Shown: positions 34,710 through 47,461 of the stretch, piece by piece
Layout of the letters: each line of letters opens with the position of its first letter
Position numbering within the stretch: position 1 is the stretch's first letter
Origin: Halarcobacter ebronensis
GTDB lineage: Bacteria; Campylobacterota; Campylobacteria; Campylobacterales; Arcobacteraceae
Direction: 5' to 3'
Assembly (NCBI RefSeq): GCF_013201825.1
Contig: NZ_CP053836.1
Location: 1,116,001 to 1,180,000 of the forward strand
DNA: 64,000 nt
Program-made: the position numbers and the translations under genes
The notes under the pieces: model-generated
Seen by the model: only the letters and a program-made list of their open reading frames with translations
Databases searched by the model: none
What the model was told of the DNA's origin: nothing

Positions 34710-34769
34710 TCGTTATTAATATTTTTAATAATATAATCGACTATAAAAAATTAAAATGAAGGATTGATA

Positions 34770-35360
34770 TTGTCAGCAAAAGAAGAGAAAAAAAATACAA
34801 TTATTGAAAACTCTTTGAAACTGTTTTCTAAAAATGGTTTTTACAATACAACAATTCCAGATATAGCCAAATCAATGAAAATGAGTGTTGGTAATATGTA
34901 CAACTACTTCAAATCAAAAGAGGAGTTGGCAAAATATGCAATCAAATACTCAACAAATGTTTTAGCAAAAGAGCTTAAAACAATAAACCAAATGGATATT
35001 AATTCAAAAGACAAGGTTTATCTTTTCACTAGAAAATATTTGGAAAGTGTAAAAAAAGCACCTGAAGTGATTGAGTACTTTTTAAGGGTTTACTTATCAA
35101 ATAGAGAGGTTTTCCAAGAGGGATGTGAAGGGTTTTTATGTGTAAGTGAATTTGTTACAGAAGTTATGATTCTACTTGATGATGGAGCTTCTAATAAAGA
35201 GTTTAGACAACAAGACTTTTTCCCAGCTTTCGCATTGATTATGGGAGCTTTAGGAGGTTTTGCTTTTTTAAGTGGAGAGAAAGTTTTAGAAAAAGATATA
35301 TTAGAGTATTCTGATGCAGTTGCAGAAAACATCTTTAGAGCACTTAAATACGAAGAGTAA
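34770..35360 (+). CDS. TetR/AcrR-family regulator of the hydrogenase island
   Basis: The start is the TTG at 34770, with AAGGA 6 bases upstream; a TTG at 34764 is directly against the ribosome site. The 196 residues have a TetR helix-turn-helix (about 10-50: NSLKLFSKNGFYNTTIPDIA, MSVGNMYNYFKSKEELAKY) and a helical ligand or partner domain. The downstream hydrogenase small-subunit gene overlaps its 3' end by 47 bases, so the two are coupled. Its position at the head of the hydrogenase island and the shared palindromes make it a probable regulator of hyd genes. The effector is unknown. Confidence 0.82.
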   Translation: MSAKEEKKNTIIENSLKLFSKNGFYNTTIPDIAKSMKMSVGNMYNYFKSKEELAKYAIKYSTNVLAKELKTINQMDINSKDKVYLFTRKYLESVKKAPEVIEYFLRVYLSNREVFQEGCEGFLCVSEFVTEVMILLDDGASNKEFRQQDFFPAFALIMGALGGFAFLSGEKVLEKDILEYSDAVAENIFRALKYEE

Positions 35361-36240
35361 AAAACCAAAAGTGTTGTGGCTTCAAGCCATAACCTGTAAT
35401 GGTAACACACACTCTTTTTTAAGTGCAAATGATAATAGAATGAAACTATTTTTAAATAGTTTTGATCTTATATATCATCCATCAATTACAACCCACACAA
35501 CAATCAAAGAGATTTTAAATTCTAAAGTAGATATTGATTTTTTACTTGTTGAAGGAGCAATTACTCCTCAAAAAGAGTTTTTTTCAATCTCAGGCTATAC
35601 ACCTTATGAGATTTTTAATAAATTAGTAAAAAAATCAAAATATATTATTGCCGTTGGTTCTTGTGCTTCTTATGGAGGAGTTCATGCAAAGTTTGAACAA
35701 AATAATCAAATCAAAGGATTAAGTGACTCTTTAGATAGTCAAAATATATATAGTTTAGCGCATCCTGTAGTTAATCTAACAGGTTGTCCTGTTCATCCTG
35801 AGTGGATATTTCAAACACTTTTTTCCCTAAAAGATTATGGAAAAATATCTTTAGATGAGAGGGGAAGACCAAAAGAGATATATTATGGTTTGGCACACCA
35901 TGGATGTACAAGAAATGAGTATTTTGAATGGAAGATTGAAGGACACTTTGGTAAAAAAGAGGGTTGTCTTTTTTATGAACAAGGCTGCCGTGGTCCTATG
36001 ACACACTCTAATTGTAATAAAATTTTATGGAATGATGTAAGTACAAAAACAAGAGCAGGAATGCCTTGTATTGGTTGTACTGAGTTTGACTTTCCAAGGG
36101 ACAATATGCTTGAAACTAAAAAAAATATAGGAATTCCAGCAGAAGTTCCTTTAGGTATTAGCAAAAGAGCATATTTGTCAATCTCAGGAGTTGCTAAGAC
36201 TTTTAAAATAGATAGGTTGCATAAGAAGCTTATAGATTAG
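35314..36240 (+). CDS. Group-2-like cytoplasmic [NiFe]-hydrogenase small subunit
   Basis: The 308-residue protein begins almost directly with the Fe-S part (KVLWLQAITCNGNTHSF) and has no Tat signal, so it is cytoplasmic, as in HupU/HoxB sensors and cyanobacterial HupS. The proximal-cluster motif is C28-N-G-N31: the usual second Cys is Asn. Other ligands are present: GSCASYGG, TGCPVHPE, HHGCTRNEYF with distal His/Cys, EGCLFYEQGC, SNCNKI and PCIGCTEFDFPR. The reading frame overlaps tetR by 47 bases. Its large subunit lies 366 bases downstream, past a hairpin cluster. H2 sensor or low-potential uptake enzyme are both possible. Confidence 0.85.
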   Translation: MQLQKTSLEHLNTKSKKPKVLWLQAITCNGNTHSFLSANDNRMKLFLNSFDLIYHPSITTHTTIKEILNSKVDIDFLLVEGAITPQKEFFSISGYTPYEIFNKLVKKSKYIIAVGSCASYGGVHAKFEQNNQIKGLSDSLDSQNIYSLAHPVVNLTGCPVHPEWIFQTLFSLKDYGKISLDERGRPKEIYYGLAHHGCTRNEYFEWKIEGHFGKKEGCLFYEQGCRGPMTHSNCNKILWNDVSTKTRAGMPCIGCTEFDFPRDNMLETKKNIGIPAEVPLGISKRAYLSISGVAKTFKIDRLHKKLID

Positions 36241-36606: not shown

Positions 36607-37962
36607 ATGAAAACAGTTGATATTATTGAAAGAATTGAAGGCGAAGCAAAACTTGTATGCCAATGGGATAATAATAGAATCAAAGATGCAAGAATAGAGT
36701 TTTTAAACTTTAGAGGTTTTGAGTATATTTTAGAAAATAAAGCGCCACTTGATGCTTTAGTTTATACGCCAAGAATTTGTGGAATTTGTGGTCAAGCCCA
36801 TTTGAAAGCTACTGTTGAAGCTTTGGAAGATATTTATAAAAATATTGGAGCTGAACTTAAAGTTACAAAAAAAGCAAAACTTTTAAGAGAAATTGGGCTT
36901 AATATTGAGATTATTGATTCACATATAAAATGGTTTTACATGTTTATTATGCCAGATATGATTAAACTTTCAAAAAGAGATTTTTCTAGTTATGAACCTC
37001 TTCATGGTGAAAAATGGCTTAAAGGTTTATCAACAGCAAGTGAAACAATAAAAGCTTTAGCTGTTATTGGTGGACAGTGGCCCCATACCTCATATATGAT
37101 TCCAGGTGGAGTTGTAAGTGATCCTACACTTTTTGATTTAACTACAATGAACAACTACTTAGATAGTGCAATAAATTTTTTTGAGAAACAGTTTGTTGGA
37201 GTTGATTTTGAAACTTATCTCTCTTTTTCAAAAATAGATGAACTAACAAATATAAAAGGTGATTTTAAAGATTTTATAGATTTATGTTATGAAAATAACT
37301 TTAATGAAATAGGTAGAAGTCACAATAGACATATTGTTCTATCTTCAAGTTCCCTTTTTAAAATGGGAAAAGTTAATAAAAGATTGACTAATAAAATAGA
37401 TTTTGAAAGAATAGAGGAGAATAGTGATTACACTTTTAATGTAGATAAGAATTTGCAAAATAGTAACTCTTATACTTGGTCAAAAAGTGTAAAGTATGGA
37501 AACAATTTTTATGAAACAGGACCTCTTTCAAGAGCTGTAGTTTCAAAAAGAGAGTTCCTTTCAGCTCTATATGAAAACTATCAAGACTCTGTTTTAGTTA
37601 GAGTTATGGCAAGAATGGATGAGTTGGCACATCTTCTTTACAATACAAAAAAACTTATAAAAGAGATAAATATAAGTGAAGAATCAGCAACAAAAGTTAG
37701 TTACTCTTTAAATGATATTAATAGTGCAGAAGGTCAAGGTGTTGTTGAAGCAAGTAGAGGTTCTTTATACCATAAAGTAACAATAGAAGAGGGAAAAATT
37801 CAGAAATATGATGTAATTACACCAACAGTATGGAATCTAGGTCCTGGAAGTTTAGATAATCAATCAATTGCACAAAAAGCAATAATTGGCTTAGACTCAA
37901 TTGAAAAAGCACAAATAGTTTTAAGAAGTTTTGATGTTTGTTCTGTATGTACTACACACTAA
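36607..37962 (+). CDS. Group-2-like [NiFe]-hydrogenase large subunit without C-terminal extension
   Basis: The 451-residue protein has the Ni-binding L1 motif RICGICGQAH near 57-66 and L2 DVCSVCTTH as its last residues. Most large subunits carry DPCxxCxxH followed by a 5-25 residue extension that a protease removes after Ni insertion. Here translation stops right after the His, as in sensor hydrogenases of the HupV/HoxC type, so no HydD processing is needed. The usual Pro of DPC is Val. There is no twin-arginine partner signal, so the pair is cytoplasmic. A clean AAAGG site precedes the ATG. Confidence 0.87.
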   Translation: MKTVDIIERIEGEAKLVCQWDNNRIKDARIEFLNFRGFEYILENKAPLDALVYTPRICGICGQAHLKATVEALEDIYKNIGAELKVTKKAKLLREIGLNIEIIDSHIKWFYMFIMPDMIKLSKRDFSSYEPLHGEKWLKGLSTASETIKALAVIGGQWPHTSYMIPGGVVSDPTLFDLTTMNNYLDSAINFFEKQFVGVDFETYLSFSKIDELTNIKGDFKDFIDLCYENNFNEIGRSHNRHIVLSSSSLFKMGKVNKRLTNKIDFERIEENSDYTFNVDKNLQNSNSYTWSKSVKYGNNFYETGPLSRAVVSKREFLSALYENYQDSVLVRVMARMDELAHLLYNTKKLIKEINISEESATKVSYSLNDINSAEGQGVVEASRGSLYHKVTIEEGKIQKYDVITPTVWNLGPGSLDNQSIAQKAIIGLDSIEKAQIVLRSFDVCSVCTTH

Positions 37963-38230: not shown

Positions 38231-39472
38231 ATGGTTGATTCTCATGAGATGGTAAAAAAAGTTTTTACCCAGAATTCTGCTAGAGTCGATACAAATAAAG
38301 GTGATGCATATTATAGTTCGCTTTTTGAAAAAGCAAAAACTAGATTAGAGGCATTAAGAAAGCAACCAGCGCTTAAAGACATTGATATGATGGGTATTGT
38401 TGAAAGTGAAGGTGTAAATAGAAGAGATTTTATGAAATGGGCAAGTGCAACAACTGCTACATTAATGTTACCTCCTATGTTTACTCCACTTGTTGCACAA
38501 GCTACAGAACTTATGAACAGAGTTCCTGTAATTTGGATTGAGTTACAAGACTGTGCAGGTAACTCAGAAGCTCTATTAAGATCTTCTGCTCCTACAGTTG
38601 ATGATCTAATATTTGATGTTTTAAGTTTAGAATTTCATGAAACTATTATGGCTGCTTCTGGACATCAAGCAGATGCACAATTAGAAGATGCAATTGAACA
38701 CTTTAAAGGTAAATATATTCTTTTTGTTGAGGGTGCAATTCCAACAGCTATGAATGGACAATATGGAACAATAGGTGCAAGTGGTGAAACCTTTAAAGAG
38801 CATTTAGAGAGACTTTCAAAAGATGCTGCTGCTGTTGTTGCTGTTGGAACCTGTGCAACTTTTGGTGGGATTCCTGCTGCTGCTCCAAATCCAACAGGTG
38901 CAGTTGGAGTTATGAATATTGTAAAAGGTAAACCTGTTATTAATATTCCTGCATGTCCTGCAAACCCAGCTAATATGGTCGGTGTTGTTTTACATTATGT
39001 TTTAACTGGACAAGTTCCAGAACTTGACTCACTATTAAGACCAAAATTTGCATTTGGTTATAGAATTCACGATAACTGTGAAAGAAGAGCTCACTTTGAT
39101 GCTGGTGAATTTGTTGAAGAGTGGGGAGATATTGGAGCTAAAAACAACTTCTGTTTATATAAAATGGGATGTAAAGGTCCTATGACATTTAATAACTGTT
39201 CTATCATTAGATATAACGAAGGTGCAAACTGGCCTATTGGTGTAGGTCGAGGATGTATTGGTTGTTCTGAACCTGATTTTTGGGATAAATATGCATATGA
39301 AAGACCAATGGCTGATGCAAATATTAAGGCTCCAACAGGTGGAGTTGAAAAAACAGTTGATCAATTCGGGCTTGGATTATTAACAGCAACAGCAGTTGGT
39401 ATTGGTGTGCACGCAGTTACAAGTGCTGCAATTGGAAAAAGAACAGTTCATAGCGAAGATGGAGATGAATAA
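38231..39472 (+). CDS. hydA: Periplasmic [NiFe]-hydrogenase small subunit, first copy
   Basis: The 413-residue HydA has an unusually long N-terminal extension before the Tat signal, with the twin arginines at 64-65 (NRRDFMKW) and a hydrophobic stretch to about 90. The mature part holds three Fe-S clusters. The proximal motif is D-C108-A-G-N111-SEALLR, where most group 1 enzymes have CTGC, so one cluster ligand is replaced by Asn. The remaining ligands are intact: VGTCATFGG, PACPANP, HDNCERRAHFDAGEF, CLYKMGC, NNCSII and GRGCIGCSEP. A C-terminal membrane helix (about 380-400) anchors it. It overlaps hydB by one base. Confidence 0.9.
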   Translation: MVDSHEMVKKVFTQNSARVDTNKGDAYYSSLFEKAKTRLEALRKQPALKDIDMMGIVESEGVNRRDFMKWASATTATLMLPPMFTPLVAQATELMNRVPVIWIELQDCAGNSEALLRSSAPTVDDLIFDVLSLEFHETIMAASGHQADAQLEDAIEHFKGKYILFVEGAIPTAMNGQYGTIGASGETFKEHLERLSKDAAAVVAVGTCATFGGIPAAAPNPTGAVGVMNIVKGKPVINIPACPANPANMVGVVLHYVLTGQVPELDSLLRPKFAFGYRIHDNCERRAHFDAGEFVEEWGDIGAKNNFCLYKMGCKGPMTFNNCSIIRYNEGANWPIGVGRGCIGCSEPDFWDKYAYERPMADANIKAPTGGVEKTVDQFGLGLLTATAVGIGVHAVTSAAIGKRTVHSEDGDE

Positions 39473-41208
39473 TGAGTAAACACGTAGTAATTGATCCAAT
39501 AACAAGGATTGAAGGGCACTTAAGAATTGAAGCAGTTATTGATGAAAATAATGTGATCACAGAGGCATACAGTTCTTCTACAATGTTTAGGGGAATTGAA
39601 GAGATTTTAAAAGGAAGAGACCCAAGAGACTGTGGTCTTTTAGCAATGAGAATCTGTGGTGTTTGTACAGGTACTCACTACCAAAGAAGTATTGAAGCAG
39701 TTGAGCATGCTTTTGGTGTTACAATTCCTAAAAATGCTAGAATTGTTAGAAACTTAATGCAAGGTGCTTTATATCTTCATGACCATATTGTTCACTTCTA
39801 TCATCTACATGCATTAGACTGGGTTGATATTACAAAAGCTTTAGAAGCTGATCCAAAAGCAGCTGTTGCTGAAGCTCAAAAATGGGCTAAATTGTCTGGA
39901 CAAAGACCTTGGAATGCTAGTGAAGATGTATTTGCAGAAGTACAAGCAAGGGTTACAAAATATGTAAAACAAGGAAGACTTGGGGTATTTGGAAATGCTT
40001 ATTGGGGAAGTAAAGCTTATAAACTAACTCCTGAGCAAAATCTAATTGGTCTTTCTCACTATCTTGATGCTTTAGATTTACAAAGAAAAATTGCAAAAGC
40101 TCAAGCTATTTTTGGTGGTAAAAATCCACATCCACAATCAATTGTTGTTGGTGGAGTAACTTGTGTACAAGATATTAAAAATCCTGCAAGAATTGCAGAG
40201 TTTAAAGATATTATTCAATTGGCACAAAAATTTATCAAACAAGCATATTTACCTGATGTTTATATGGCTGGAACTATGTATGCAGATGAAGCACTTGAAG
40301 GTGTTGGTGGTGGTTTAGGAAACTATATGTCTTATGGTGACTTTAACTTAGATGATACACCATTTTATGAAGCTAAAAAACTTTTCCCTAGTGGAATTGT
40401 TTTAAATAAAGATTTAACAAAAGTTTTTGATTTAGACCAATCTAAAATTACTGAAGATGTTACTCACTCTTGGTATGAGGGAACTGATAATCTTCACCCA
40501 TTTAATGGAAAAACAAATCCTAACTATACAGGATTTAAAGAGAAAAAAGATGGGATTGCATATTTAGATGTGGAGAAAAAATACTCTTGGATTAAATCAC
40601 CACTTTATGATGATCAAAGAATGGAAGTTGGACCACTAGCTAGAATGATAGTTGGTGTAGCAAAAGGGGATGAAAGAATTACAAAATATGTAACAACTTT
40701 CCTTAAAAATGGAAATCTTCCTACTTCTGTATTATTCTCTACTGTAGGAAGAACAGCTGGAAGAGCTATTGAAACAGAACTTATGGCAGAAGCAATTTTA
40801 GAGTGGTGTGATGAACTAGCTAAAAATGCAGCAGCTGGGGATTTATCTACTTGGACAGAGTTTGATTTTGACAAAGTTGCAAAAGACGCGCAAGGTTATG
40901 GTATGGCTGAAGCACCAAGAGGTGGTTTGGGTCACTGGGTTAAAATCAAAGATGGAAAAGTTGTAAATTATCAAGCAGTTGTTCCATCAACTTGGAATGC
41001 AGCTCCAAAAGATTACAAAGGTAGAATGGGAGCTTATGAGGCTTCTTTAGTTGGAACTAAAGTAGTTGATCCAGATCAACCATTAGAGATTATTAGAACA
41101 GTGCATAGTTTTGACCCTTGTATCGCTTGTGCAGTTCACATTGTAGATACAAAAGGCAAAGAATTGGCAGTATACAAAGTAGATCCAGTAGGAGGATGCC
41201 GTGCCTAA
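39472..41208 (+). CDS. hydB: [NiFe]-hydrogenase large subunit, first copy
   Basis: The 578-residue catalytic subunit has the N-terminal DPITRIEGHLRIE block, L1 MRICGVCTGTHYQRS, and L2 FDPCIACAVH followed by a 21-residue extension to be cleaved after the His. The four Ni-Fe cysteines are present. The enzyme splits H2 in the periplasm after Tat export in complex with HydA. The start overlaps the hydA stop (TAATG). The extension implies processing by the downstream HydD. Confidence 0.93.
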   Translation: MSKHVVIDPITRIEGHLRIEAVIDENNVITEAYSSSTMFRGIEEILKGRDPRDCGLLAMRICGVCTGTHYQRSIEAVEHAFGVTIPKNARIVRNLMQGALYLHDHIVHFYHLHALDWVDITKALEADPKAAVAEAQKWAKLSGQRPWNASEDVFAEVQARVTKYVKQGRLGVFGNAYWGSKAYKLTPEQNLIGLSHYLDALDLQRKIAKAQAIFGGKNPHPQSIVVGGVTCVQDIKNPARIAEFKDIIQLAQKFIKQAYLPDVYMAGTMYADEALEGVGGGLGNYMSYGDFNLDDTPFYEAKKLFPSGIVLNKDLTKVFDLDQSKITEDVTHSWYEGTDNLHPFNGKTNPNYTGFKEKKDGIAYLDVEKKYSWIKSPLYDDQRMEVGPLARMIVGVAKGDERITKYVTTFLKNGNLPTSVLFSTVGRTAGRAIETELMAEAILEWCDELAKNAAAGDLSTWTEFDFDKVAKDAQGYGMAEAPRGGLGHWVKIKDGKVVNYQAVVPSTWNAAPKDYKGRMGAYEASLVGTKVVDPDQPLEIIRTVHSFDPCIACAVHIVDTKGKELAVYKVDPVGGCRA

Positions 41209-41935
41209 AATGAAGCGGGTTGAGAGAATGACTCCAATCATGCGAACCATTCACTGGATGAATGCTATTTGTATGGTTGTTGCAGTTATAACCGGGCTAT
41301 ATATAGGTCATCCATATTATCAAACATTTATTGCAGATCCTGCAGTTGATAAATATGTGATGGCATGGAATAGATGGGGACATTTTATTGTTGCTATTAT
41401 ATTTGATGTTACAGCAATTTTAATTGGTTATTTGTATCTTTTCTCTAGATTTGAAAAACCATATAAAAAGATTTTGCCAACAAAAAGAAATTTTGTAGAG
41501 TTTTGTGAGGTTTTCTTCAACTTAATTACTTTTAATAGAAGAAAAAAATTTGATACAGAGTATAGTGATAGTTATAACATTATGTTCTTTACTCTATTTC
41601 ATATTCTATTAGTATTTATGTTGTTAACTGGTCTTCAAATGTATGTTCATGGGCTAGCTTCAGGGCATAGTTCAATTGGTGCATGGTGGCCTTGGATTCT
41701 TCACGTATCTACTGATTGGACACTTTGGGTATTTGGTGGAAATATGGGTGTTAGAATTGCTCACCACACTGCAATGTATATTTTGATTATGTGGGTTATG
41801 TCACATATTTATTATCAAATCTGGAGAACTATCTTCTGGAGAGAGGGTGATATTAATATTGTATTTGGTGGTACAAAATTTGTTAACAAAAGCATTGTTA
41901 ACTCAAAAGGTGAAGTTGAAACTCACGGAAAATAG
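41201..41935 (+). CDS. hydC: Hydrogenase cytochrome b subunit, first copy
   Basis: The 244-residue membrane protein starts at GTG 41201, because AGGAGG lies 5 bases before it; the ATG at 41210 is too far. It has four transmembrane helices with haem-ligating histidines in TIHWMNAICM, NRWGHFIVAI, LLTGLQMYVHG and VRIAHHTAMYILIMW. It passes electrons from the HydAB dimer to menaquinone. It overlaps hydB by 8 bases. A strong terminator follows immediately, separating it from hydD. Confidence 0.9.
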   Translation: MPKMKRVERMTPIMRTIHWMNAICMVVAVITGLYIGHPYYQTFIADPAVDKYVMAWNRWGHFIVAIIFDVTAILIGYLYLFSRFEKPYKKILPTKRNFVEFCEVFFNLITFNRRKKFDTEYSDSYNIMFFTLFHILLVFMLLTGLQMYVHGLASGHSSIGAWWPWILHVSTDWTLWVFGGNMGVRIAHHTAMYILIMWVMSHIYYQIWRTIFWREGDINIVFGGTKFVNKSIVNSKGEVETHGK

Positions 41936-42070: not shown

Positions 42071-42646
42071 ATGAACAATATAGTTATTGGAGTTGGGAAT
42101 TTATTATTCAAAGATGAGGGTGTAGGTATTTATGCTGCAAAATATTTAAAAGAGAATTTTAAATTTGACGACAATTTAGAGATTATTGAAGGTGGAACAT
42201 TAGGTTTTAAACTAATGACTTACTTTCAAGAGTATGATAATGTAATAATTTTAGATACTGTCTCTATTGAAGATAGAGCAGGGGAGATATATAGACTCCC
42301 TTCTGATGTATTGTTGGGACTTGGACAATATAGAAAAACTGCACACGAAGTAGAGATTGTTGAAATGCTTGAGATCTGCTCAGTTTTAGATAAACATGCA
42401 GAAGTTACTATTTTAGGAATAATTCCAGAAGATATTGTTACTGTTGAAATTGGACTTACCAAAACAATAGAGGACAAATTTGAAGAGTATATAGCACAAG
42501 CTTTAAAAGAGATTGAAACAACTGGAAGTAAAATTGAAAAAATCAATAATAAAAGTGTAAAAGATATTGCTTTAGAACTAATTGGAAGTTACAACGGGGA
42601 ACATTTAAATAGGATTCCAAATGAGGAAGATACCACATGGAGCTAA
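42071..42646 (+). CDS. hydD: Hydrogenase maturation protease, first copy
   Basis: The 191-residue protein belongs to the HyaD/HydD endopeptidase family, with GVGNLLFKDEGVGIYAAKYL (Ni-contacting Glu), IILDTVSIED with the catalytic Asp, and TAHEVEIVEML with the His. It cleaves the C-terminal tail of HydB after nickel insertion. It overlaps hydE by 10 bases. The C-terminal 30 residues are an extra tail relative to HyaD. Confidence 0.9.
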   Translation: MNNIVIGVGNLLFKDEGVGIYAAKYLKENFKFDDNLEIIEGGTLGFKLMTYFQEYDNVIILDTVSIEDRAGEIYRLPSDVLLGLGQYRKTAHEVEIVEMLEICSVLDKHAEVTILGIIPEDIVTVEIGLTKTIEDKFEEYIAQALKEIETTGSKIEKINNKSVKDIALELIGSYNGEHLNRIPNEEDTTWS

Positions 42647-44480: not shown

Positions 44481-44567
44481 CAAAAATTTGATTTGAGTCA
44501 ATTTTTATTGAAACAATTTTTATTAAAATTTGATGTTTGAACGAACAATTATTCAAAAGGATTGGTT

Positions 44568-45725
44568 GTGGAAGAAAAAAGTTTATTTGACAGACTTTCG
44601 AAAAGGTTAGAAACTCTTGAAAAACTACCAAAGTTAGACGAAAACAAGTCTATACCTAAGGTGTTAGAAGAGAAAGGTGTATCAAGAAGAGATTTTATGA
44701 AGTGGGCAACAGCAATTACTGCAATGTTAGCACTTCCAGGTAACTTTTCTCCTCTTGTTGCAAAGGCTGCAGAGTTAAGTGATAGATTACCTATCATTTG
44801 GTTGCATATGGCAGAGTGTACAGGATGTTCTGAGTCACTACTTAGAACTGATGCTCCAACAATCGATTCCTTAATATTTGATTACATCTCTTTAGAGTAT
44901 CATGAAACATTAATGGCAAGTGCAGGTTGGCAAGCTGAACACAATTTAGAACATGCTATTGAAAGACATAAAGGTAACTACATCTTAATGGTAGAAGGTG
45001 GTATTCCTAGTGGACAAAATGATTTCTATTTAACTGTTGGTGGAAAAGGACATACAGGTGAGCACACTGCACAAATTGCATGTGAAAGTGCAAAAGCAAT
45101 TTTTGCTATTGGTACATGTTCTTCTTTTGGTGGTGTTCAAGCTGCTATTCCTAATCCAACAGGAGCAGTTGCACTTAGCAAAATTACAAACAAACCAGTT
45201 ATAAATGTACCTGGATGTCCTCCAAGTGAAAAAAATATTGTTGGAACTCTATTACATTTTATTCTTTATGGTACACTACCCGCCCTTGATGCATATAATA
45301 GACCAAAATGGGCTTACGGACTTAGAATTCACGATTTATGTGAGAGAAGAGGGCACTTTGATGCTGGTGAGTTTGTAGAAGAGTTTGGTGATGAAGGTGC
45401 AAAAAAAGGTTACTGTTTATATAAAGTTGGATGTAAAGGACCTTATACATTTAATAACTGTGGTAAAAATAGATTTAATCAACATACATCATGGCCTATT
45501 CAAGCTGGACATGGTTGTATAGGTTGTAGTGAGCCAGATTTCTGGGATACAATGGGACCATTTGAAGAGCCTGTTGCAGACAGATTATACAATACAGTAT
45601 TTGGTGGATTAGGAGCAGATGCAACAGCAGATAAAATTGGTGTTGGGCTTCTTGCAGTAACCGGTATTGGTATTGCAGCACACGCAGCTATTTCAAAATT
45701 TAAACATCCAAAAGATGAGGAGTAA
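44568..45725 (+). CDS. hydA: Periplasmic [NiFe]-hydrogenase small subunit, second copy
   Basis: I choose the GTG at 44568, seven bases after AAAAGG; a TTG at 44562 is too close to it. The 385 residues have twin arginines at 40-41 (SRRDFMKW) and a canonical proximal motif C84-T-G-C87 (ECTGCSESLLR), in contrast to the CAGN of the first copy. The other ligands (GTCSSFGG, PGCPP, HDLCERRGHFDAGEF, CLYKVGC, NNCGKN, GCIGCSEP) are intact. A C-terminal membrane helix is present. It is the small subunit of the classic Wolinella/Campylobacter-like enzyme. Confidence 0.92.
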   Translation: MEEKSLFDRLSKRLETLEKLPKLDENKSIPKVLEEKGVSRRDFMKWATAITAMLALPGNFSPLVAKAAELSDRLPIIWLHMAECTGCSESLLRTDAPTIDSLIFDYISLEYHETLMASAGWQAEHNLEHAIERHKGNYILMVEGGIPSGQNDFYLTVGGKGHTGEHTAQIACESAKAIFAIGTCSSFGGVQAAIPNPTGAVALSKITNKPVINVPGCPPSEKNIVGTLLHFILYGTLPALDAYNRPKWAYGLRIHDLCERRGHFDAGEFVEEFGDEGAKKGYCLYKVGCKGPYTFNNCGKNRFNQHTSWPIQAGHGCIGCSEPDFWDTMGPFEEPVADRLYNTVFGGLGADATADKIGVGLLAVTGIGIAAHAAISKFKHPKDEE

Positions 45726-45730
45726 AAAAA

Positions 45731-47461
45731 ATGGCAACTAAAAGAGTTATCGTAGACCCTATTACAAGAATCGAAGGACATTTAAGAATAGAAGTAGAGG
45801 TTGATGAAAATAATGTAATTCAAAATGCCTTCTCATCTGCAACACTTTGGAGAGGTTTAGAGACTATTGTAAAAAATAGAGACCCAAGAGATGCAGGATT
45901 TTTGATGCAAAGAATCTGTGGTGTTTGTACTTTCTCACACTATAGAGCAGGTATTGAAGCAGTTGAGGATGCACTTGGTATTGTTCCTCCTTTAAATGCA
46001 AAATTAACAAGAAGTTTAATGAACCAAGCACTATTTATGCATGACCACGTAATTCACTTTTACCATTTACATGGATTAGATTGGGTTGATGTTGTTTCAG
46101 CACTTAGTGCAGATCCAGCAAAAGCTGCTAAAGAAGCATTCCAATATACAAAATATCCAATTGCAACTGGTGAAAATGATTTAATTCAAGTAAAAGATAG
46201 AGTTAAAGCTTTTGTTGACAAAGGTGAACTTGGACCTTTTGCAAATGCATATTGGGGACATGGAACATTTAACTTTACACCAGAACAAAACTTAATTGCG
46301 CTTTCACACTATTTAAAAGCATTAGAAGTTCAAAGAACAGCAGCTCAATTAATGGCACTATTTGGTGGTAAACAACCACATCCACAAAGTTTAACTGTTG
46401 GTGGAGTTACTTGTGTTATGGATCTACTTGATCCTTCAAGAATGGGTGAATATTTAACAAAATATAAAGAAGTTTCTAACTTTATTAAAAATGCTTATTA
46501 TGCAGATATTAAAATGGCTGCAAAAGCTTATGCTGGTGAAAAAAGTGTAACTGAAAAAGCTGGAACTATGAACTTTATGTCTCACCAAGAGATGCAATTA
46601 AATAGAACAGAATATCTTTTTGATACTGGTATTATTATGAATGGTGACTTATCAAATGTTCTTCCAATAAATGAAGATTTAATTACAGAAGAAGCAACAC
46701 ATGCATGGTATGCAGATAATGAGCCTTTACATCCATATAATGGTAAAACAAATCCTAACTATACAGGATTACAAGATAAAATGACTATTGGACCTGATGG
46801 AACTGAAATTCCTTCAAAATCGATTGATGATAAGGGTAAATATACTTGGATGAAATCTCCAAGATATGATGGTCAACCAATGGAAGTTGGACCATTAGCA
46901 TCAGTTTTAGTTTCATATGCAAAAGGAAATAAAAGAGTTGTTAAAGTTGTAGATGAGTTCTTAAAAGAGACAGGTCTTCCAACAGCAGCACTATTTACAA
47001 CTTTAGGAAGAACAGCGGCAAGATGTCTTCAAGCAATGGCTATTATTGATAATGGTTTAGAAACATTTACTACACTTATTGAAAATTTAAAAGTTGACCA
47101 AGATACTTGTGCTCCTTATAAAATTGATAAAAATAAAGAGTATAAAGGAAGATTCATTGGAGATGTTCCAAGAGGTATGTTATCTCACTGGATTAGAATT
47201 AAAAATGGTGTTGTTGAAAACTACCAAGCTGTTGTTCCATCAACATGGAATGCAGGTCCAGAAGATGCAAAAGGACAAAAAGGTCCTTATGAATCAAATC
47301 TAATTGGATTAAAAGTTGAAGATATCTCTAAACCTTTAGAGATAATTAGGGTTATTCATAGTTTTGACCCTTGTATTGCTTGTGCCGTTCATGTAATGGA
47401 TCAAAAAGGTAATAATTTAGGTGTTTATAAAGTTGATCCTGTATATGGCACTAGCTGTTAG
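45731..47461 (+). CDS. hydB: [NiFe]-hydrogenase large subunit, second copy
   Basis: The 576-residue catalytic subunit has VDPITRIEGHLRIE at the start, L1 QRICGVCTFSHYRAG, and L2 DPCIACAVH with a cleavable extension of about 20 residues. It has an insertion around residues 350-375 (DKMTIGPDGTEIPSK) that the first copy lacks. It lies 5 bases after hydA2. Like HydB1 it needs HydD-type processing. Confidence 0.93.
   Translation: MATKRVIVDPITRIEGHLRIEVEVDENNVIQNAFSSATLWRGLETIVKNRDPRDAGFLMQRICGVCTFSHYRAGIEAVEDALGIVPPLNAKLTRSLMNQALFMHDHVIHFYHLHGLDWVDVVSALSADPAKAAKEAFQYTKYPIATGENDLIQVKDRVKAFVDKGELGPFANAYWGHGTFNFTPEQNLIALSHYLKALEVQRTAAQLMALFGGKQPHPQSLTVGGVTCVMDLLDPSRMGEYLTKYKEVSNFIKNAYYADIKMAAKAYAGEKSVTEKAGTMNFMSHQEMQLNRTEYLFDTGIIMNGDLSNVLPINEDLITEEATHAWYADNEPLHPYNGKTNPNYTGLQDKMTIGPDGTEIPSKSIDDKGKYTWMKSPRYDGQPMEVGPLASVLVSYAKGNKRVVKVVDEFLKETGLPTAALFTTLGRTAARCLQAMAIIDNGLETFTTLIENLKVDQDTCAPYKIDKNKEYKGRFIGDVPRGMLSHWIRIKNGVVENYQAVVPSTWNAGPEDAKGQKGPYESNLIGLKVEDISKPLEIIRVIHSFDPCIACAVHVMDQKGNNLGVYKVDPVYGTSC

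Follow-up and report, generated by a model that had tools for sequence, protein, structure and literature searches.

A conserved asparagine replaces a proximal-cluster cysteine in a Campylobacterota clade of [NiFe] hydrogenase small subunits

The window analyzed here is a 64,000-nucleotide stretch of the Halarcobacter ebronensis genome (3.17 Mb on a single contig, NZ_CP053836.1). It carries three [NiFe] hydrogenases in a single cluster, in the order TetR-type gene, group-2-like pair, HydA1-HydB1-HydC1, and a second set with HydA2 and HydB2. All of the genes named below are on the + strand, and additional open reading frames (ORFs) in the window resemble maturation genes. The first gene of the cluster is the ORF of the TetR-type regulator (34764..35360); a TetR/AcrR protein is annotated at the equivalent place on two plasmids. 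The group-2-like small subunit (35314..36240) has Huc as its best solved relative, and alignment places a CNGN motif at 35395-35406. This subunit, too, therefore has Asn at the second proximal Cys position, a feature that went unmentioned in the first-pass annotation. CNGN was present in 69 of 76 distinct group-2-like small subunits, a set that includes loci from the pattern scan described below. The ORF of the corresponding large subunit (36607..37962) stops directly after CSVCTTH, without a C-terminal extension, a terminus that we take to fit a sensor-type enzyme.

HydA1 is a 413-residue [NiFe] hydrogenase small subunit (38231..39472). It is followed by the ORF of its large subunit, HydB1 (39472..41208), which has the L1 motif RICGVC and the L2 motif DPCIACAVH, and by HydC1 (41201..41935, GTG start), which, based on its ORF and gene order, probably serves HydAB1 as its cytochrome b membrane partner. 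The annotation of plasmids of Sulfurovum mangrovi and Sulfurimonas paralvinellae has a cytochrome b/b6 domain protein in the equivalent gene order. The ORF at 42071..42646 is, by its position, a probable hydrogenase maturation protease belonging to the HydAB1 set; a HyaD/HybD family protein occupies the matching place after hydC on the S. mangrovi plasmid. Further downstream are HydA2 (44562..45725), a paralog with the ordinary CTGC motif (44817-44828), and the ORF of its large subunit, HydB2 (45731..47461). Counted from the TTG start of HydA2, the two cysteines of CTGC are C86 and C89 and not, as had been given, C84 and C87.

HydA1 scored 456.2 bits against TIGR00391, for which the curated cut-off is 179.5. 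The Pfam domains NiFe_hyd_SSU_C and Oxidored_q6 were also above cut-off, and TAT_signal, at 22.3 bits, was slightly below its cut-off of 22.7. A twin-arginine motif, RRDFMKW, starts at residue 64, and there is a hydrophobic C-terminal segment. Among solved structures, HydA1 matched ordinary group 1 [NiFe] enzymes with E values of about 1e-74 to 1e-90 and Huc with an E value of only about 1e-32; judged by these values, HydA1 as a whole small subunit is not a member of group 2a. AlphaFold2 modeled HydA1 poorly (mean pLDDT of 55.3 overall and below 50 for residues 107-120), and no conclusion is based on this model.

The first-pass annotation had noticed that HydA1 reads CAGN where CxGC is expected at the proximal Fe-S cluster, and this was confirmed. 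The motif comprises C108, A109, G110 and N111, encoded by TGT GCA GGT AAC at 38552-38563, and its place at the proximal site is supported by alignment to solved small subunits and by column counts. The AAC codon is two or three base changes away from a Cys codon. Alignment with E. coli HyaA and solved small subunits identified C108, C208 and C242 as the proximal cysteines, H280, C283, C308 and C314 as the distal ligands, and C323, C342 and C345 as the medial ligands. Ten other cluster ligands (nine Cys and one His) are thus present. HydA1 has nine cysteines in total, every one of them at a known ligand position, with no spare. It lacks the C-x-x-C plus two more cysteines of a prototypical four-Cys proximal [4Fe-4S] site and has the C-x-G-N of group 2a, with both other proximal cysteines kept.

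We searched 104 genomes of the family and 397 genomes of the phylum (overlapping sets) with the whole HydA1 protein, so that hits were found blind to the motif. The resulting set of 136 HydA1-type proteins consists of 133 matches listed at E ≤ 2.5e-199 and three that are more divergent; lower-scoring matches were fetched in part, and the counts that follow apply among the matches listed. CAGN was found in 135 of 136 proteins and CAGE in one, and the ten other ligand positions were kept in all 136. Identity to HydA1 was as low as 54%, with all but three of the 136 at 67% or above. None of the 136 had CxGC, the finding in orthologs that the first-pass annotation had named as one that would refute its observation. 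Its further claim that the loss is specific rather than a sign of decay also stands, given that every other ligand is retained throughout. The ordinary CTGC was present in 23 of 23 HydA2-type proteins, which are part of the HydA2-type matches listed. Among the matches listed, HydA1-type proteins occurred in 91 of the 397 phylum genomes, and 43 of those 91 carriers had no other match at E ≤ 1e-60.

The CAGE protein is the second copy of a tandem hydA pair (genome G069; L051:8847-11294, and the same in L167, Arcobacter sp. LC1). The first hydA of this pair has CAGN with Ser-Cys-Pro at the fourth proximal position, and the second has CAGE with Gly-Cys-Pro there. On the S. mangrovi plasmid (NZ_CP087125, L254:8001-9229), the hydA1 match is split in two, with no small subunit among the listed proteins; this may be a frameshift, and the longer frame reads CAGN.

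We also scanned species genomes with two patterns and took the best 80 of 433 loci. These carried the labels Sulfurovum, Sulfurimonas, Sulfuricurvum, Nitratiruptor, Nitratifractor, Hydrogenimonas, Arcobacter, Aliarcobacter and Poseidonibacter, among others, and two of the 80 were labeled as coming from outside the phylum. Since one of the two patterns contains QDCAGN, the scan shows where the type occurs and not how well the motif is conserved. The scan loci were excluded from the count of 136. They are included in the larger HydB1, column and tree sets, so the main counts were repeated without them.

The CxGN motif was also seen in other small subunits. A plasmid of Sulfobacillus acidophilus (CP003180, L256:4821-6098) encodes a Bacillota group 1 small subunit with CDGN, in which Asp precedes the first Cys, as in HydA1; the motif is therefore not confined to Campylobacterota. 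In a fused protein of about 810 residues, a pyridine-nucleotide-disulfide oxidoreductase domain and a BFD-like [2Fe-2S] domain are joined to a [NiFe] small subunit whose motif is C(S/T)GN. It was found at L102:6442-8862 (+) and also in loci L050, L088, L094, L100, L101, L103, L129, L143, L144 and L168. These loci also contain a hydrogenase large subunit, and some copies are cut by the ends of the locus. The domains were assigned with Pfam in the L102 copy alone, where no twin-arginine signal was found. The fused protein could be an NAD(P)H-linked hydrogenase of the cytoplasm.

One tree was built from 79 small subunits; for a second, with 78, we left out one long row and five motif columns. The references were from E. 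coli, Azospirillum, Parabacteroides and Sulfobacillus, none of them marked as group 1b. In both trees, a well-supported branch separated each of HydA1, HydA2 and the fused family from all other sequences, and the HydA1 branch had support of 100/99 with the five columns removed. HydA1 thus forms its own clade, apart from the CTGC paralog that adjoins it in the window. In the first tree, HydA1, the fused family and the Sulfobacillus protein were joined with support of 95/88. Once the motif columns and the long row were removed, they no longer formed one side of a branch. A single clade of the three was not rejected (p-AU 0.416); of 200 bootstrap trees, 11% contained it. Within group 1, CxGN may thus have arisen once or twice, with long branches in play.

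The HydA1 clade is marked by more of its proximal pocket than the Asn. Among the matches listed, D107 and A109 were each conserved in 136 of 136 HydA1-type proteins, A114 in 135 and A241 in 134; at the same positions, HydA2-type proteins (26 or 27 of them) have E, T, S and G, respectively. The large subunit carries a signature as well. HydB1 Met59 (codon at 39646..39648) aligns with Glu73 of E. coli HyaB, adjoining the proximal cluster pocket. Met was found there in 159 of 159 distinct HydB1 sequences, a set that includes pattern-scan loci, and in 86 of 86 after the loci from that scan, one of whose patterns contains CAGN, were removed. The equivalent of His229 was kept in all 159. HydB2 has Gln at the Met59 column (18 of 18). 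In the Salmonella Hyd-5 work (PMC3940037), Glu73 is described as lying close to His229 and the proximal cluster, with Glu highly conserved at this position in O2-tolerant enzymes and Gln commonest in standard ones; changing Glu73 to Ala came at the expense of H2 oxidation in air. The fused relatives have Gln (eight) or Gly (three) in this column and the Sulfobacillus enzyme has Gln, all of them with CxGN. Met is therefore a mark of the clade, and the Asn does not require it. HydB1 and HydB2 also differ in many further columns.

Evidence for a working enzyme comes from S. paralvinellae GO25 (G111), a reported H2 user. Its genome has one small subunit above the hydA cut-off, which is plasmid-borne and reads CAGN, and the gene order on that plasmid (NZ_CP041407, 49,811 bases) is TetR, group-2-like pair, HydABC. 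Because an organism reported to use H2 has the HydA1 type alone above the cut-off, the type is very likely functional. The organism also has the group-2-like enzyme, and group 4 hydrogenase genes have been reported for it; with these present, HydABC1 is a presumed source of its H2 uptake. Table 3 of PMC7952632 gives S. paralvinellae no group 1 hydrogenase, and the genome in Table 2 of the same paper includes the plasmid; the plasmid-borne hydA corrects that entry. On this plasmid (L255), TetR, the group-2-like pair and HydABC1 are accompanied by maturation genes and hypBCDE, and a large share of the H2 metabolism of S. paralvinellae may therefore be plasmid-borne.

The nearest known enzymes are the group 1b HydABC hydrogenases of Campylobacterota. 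These and HydABC1 share the TIGR00391 family, the twin-arginine motif of a putative export signal, the L1 and L2 motifs and a cytochrome b assigned by gene order, and the small subunits share a His/Cys distal site and a three-Cys medial site. HydABC1 differs in having Asn for the second proximal Cys and HydB1 Met59 for Gln. E. coli Hyd-1 belongs to the same small-subunit family, is of the membrane-bound uptake type and also has an altered proximal cluster. Hyd-1 has two extra cysteines and Glu73; HydA1 falls one Cys short of the four-Cys type, and HydB1 has Met at the Glu73 position. The HupS proteins of cyanobacteria are not known to be exported by the twin-arginine route. The first-pass annotation had pointed to Asn at this position in group 2a, which agrees with the CSGN of Huc and with Table 1 of PMC4070099, where HupS of Nostoc punctiforme has Asn for Cys at proximal position 2. 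By the description in that paper, Nostoc HupS is set apart from HydA1 by further changes, distal His to Gln and medial Pro to Lys. Huc itself, from Mycobacterium smegmatis (group 2a, PDB 7UTD/7UUR), shares C-x-G-N with HydA1 and is otherwise the distant match noted above.

Group 1 precedents are also on record. Sections of PMC5364354 describe Asn or Asp at a proximal Cys in group 1f and Asn in the HupS of Methylacidimicrobium, and mention three-Cys proximal sites in groups 1b, f and g. These enzymes resemble HydA1 in being group 1 hydrogenases with one proximal Cys replaced; they come from other phyla, and the comparison is by description, with the replaced Cys left unspecified in those sections. 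The class of substitution is thus known, with the group 1b case mentioned in passing, and the HydDB paper classes a hydrogenase of Arcobacter sp. E1/2/3 as group 1b (PMC5037454). The suggestion in the first-pass annotation that Asn would be unusual in a membrane-bound periplasmic enzyme was consequently too strong, since Asn is the rule in the HydA1 clade and has the precedents in PMC5364354.

Our preferred reading, to which we give a probability of roughly two in three, is that HydA1 represents a conserved and distinct kind of membrane-bound uptake hydrogenase in the periplasm of Campylobacterota, with a three-Cys proximal cluster of raised potential that favors H2 oxidation. The proximal cluster would be held by Cys 108, 208 and 242, with Asn111 facing the corner normally bound by the fourth Cys. 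It would be either an Asn-capped [4Fe-4S] cluster or, slightly likelier, a [3Fe-4S] cluster like that of Huc. Loss of the thiolate would raise the proximal potential whichever cluster is present, and a higher proximal potential would favor H2 oxidation over H2 production, so that a bias to H2 uptake is expected for both cluster types. The analogy with Huc makes a shifted potential plausible. All three Huc clusters were assigned as [3Fe-4S] from a 1.52 Å map and EPR; the same report puts the gain at about +250 mV for [3Fe-4S] over [4Fe-4S] and the onset near −80 to −160 mV (PMC10017518). Since the other two sites of Huc are also [3Fe-4S], its high potential is not attributable to the Asn alone.

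The alternative that survives best is that Asn111 is a true fourth ligand of a 3Cys:1Asn [4Fe-4S] cluster, in which case the shift in potential is perhaps modest and the enzyme perhaps behaves like an ordinary group 1b hydrogenase. We rate it at somewhat below even odds; it overlaps with the preferred reading, and the odds we assign do not sum to one. Asn coordination of a [4Fe-4S] cluster in group 2a is described in PMC5364354, and isolated Nostoc punctiforme HupS, with its Asn, gave EPR signals of two [4Fe-4S] clusters and one [3Fe-4S] cluster (PMC4463661). However, the passage reporting those signals does not assign the [3Fe-4S] to a particular site, and the proximal CSGN site of Huc was assigned as [3Fe-4S]. 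The mixed signals of Nostoc HupS mean that CxGN alone does not fix the cluster type. When this Cys was changed to Asn in an engineered Alteromonas enzyme, whole cells still evolved H2 in a crude assay, so that activity remained; in the same survey, Asp and not Asn was nearly always the best-tolerated substitute (PMC4070099).

More tentatively, HydABC1 could be a Huc-like high-potential hydrogenase whose frame is that of a cytochrome-b-linked group 1 enzyme of the periplasm, with [3Fe-4S] clusters at the proximal and medial sites and [4Fe-4S] at the distal site. We rate this specific form as less likely than not.

It is unlikely, in our estimate, that the Asn confers oxygen tolerance in place of the six-Cys [4Fe-3S] cluster and so allows H2 use in oxic water. 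Three-Cys proximal sites do occur in the O2-insensitive Huc (PMC10017518) and in group 1h (PMC5364354), and HydA1-type genes were found, among the best 80 of 433 scan loci, in genomes labeled Sulfurimonas, Sulfurovum, Sulfuricurvum and Arcobacter. There is also an ecological argument. The plumes inhabited by Sulfurimonas pluma are saturated with O2, and the species is described as having only a group 1b hydrogenase, which the authors read as an oxygen-sensitive type and report, in the same account, as its highest expressed catabolic gene (PMC10066037). Elsewhere, group 1b is called oxygen-tolerant, citing work on H. pylori (PMC10811913). Against this, the exclusion of O2 from Huc is credited to its narrow gas channels (PMC10017518), and HydAB1 lacks the features of O2-tolerant membrane-bound hydrogenases (MBH). 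The extra cysteines of the six-Cys MBH are at Hyd-1 small-subunit positions 19 and 120 (PMC5186783); HydA1 has Gly at position 19, its nine cysteines are elsewhere, and HydB1 has Met59 and not Glu73. The one direct counterexample is the group-1b-like Methylacidimicrobium enzyme with Asn in HupS, which is reported as highly O2-sensitive, preliminary testing having shown inactivation at oxygen levels above 0.01% (PMC5364354). The oxygen tolerance that the first-pass annotation thought might follow from the Asn is accordingly unsupported.

We think it improbable that the Asn is nearly neutral, having become fixed in an ancestor without functional consequence. Ligand positions of the Alteromonas enzyme broadly tolerate Asp, Asn, His and Gln (PMC4070099), and the tandem second copy with CAGE shows another residue at this site in one lineage. 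Nevertheless, Asn was retained in 135 of 136 proteins down to 54% identity, with no reversion to Cys and with the neighboring pocket residues fixed, and it recurs in the fused family, the Sulfobacillus enzyme and most group-2-like small subunits.

It is very unlikely that another Cys supplies the fourth position and restores an ordinary four-Cys [4Fe-4S] cluster. A replacement within HydA1 was ruled out because all nine cysteines are at known ligand positions and none is spare. The large subunit offers a candidate in HydB1 Cys54, eight residues before the first Ni-ligand Cys and present in 128 of 159 sequences, but Ala or Val stands in its place in 30 of the 159. A sequencing error, a mutation in this isolate or a decaying gene can be dismissed, since 135 of 136 relatives agree, the frames are open, the ligands and gene order are intact, and nothing was found in favor.

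What is new here is the HydA1 clade with its nearly fixed Asn, the signature of pocket residues in the two subunits, and the finding in S. paralvinellae. We recognized no description of a CAGN clade in Campylobacterota, of its pairing with CTGC or of the HydB1 Met in searches of full-text literature, which mostly leave subscription papers outside. At vents and redoxclines, Sulfurimonas and other Campylobacterota are important consumers of H2, and their group 1b enzyme has been interpreted as oxygen-sensitive (PMC10066037). The window holds CTGC and CAGN small subunits side by side, with pocket residues that differ in both subunits, and since both enzymes are in one organism's gene cluster, they form a natural pair for testing the effect of the proximal Cys-to-Asn change. 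If the Huc-like reading is true, relatives in Sulfurimonas, Sulfurovum and Arcobacter would take up H2 at low concentrations and at high redox potential, and the group 1b label would hide two enzymes with different proximal clusters, sometimes within one genome.
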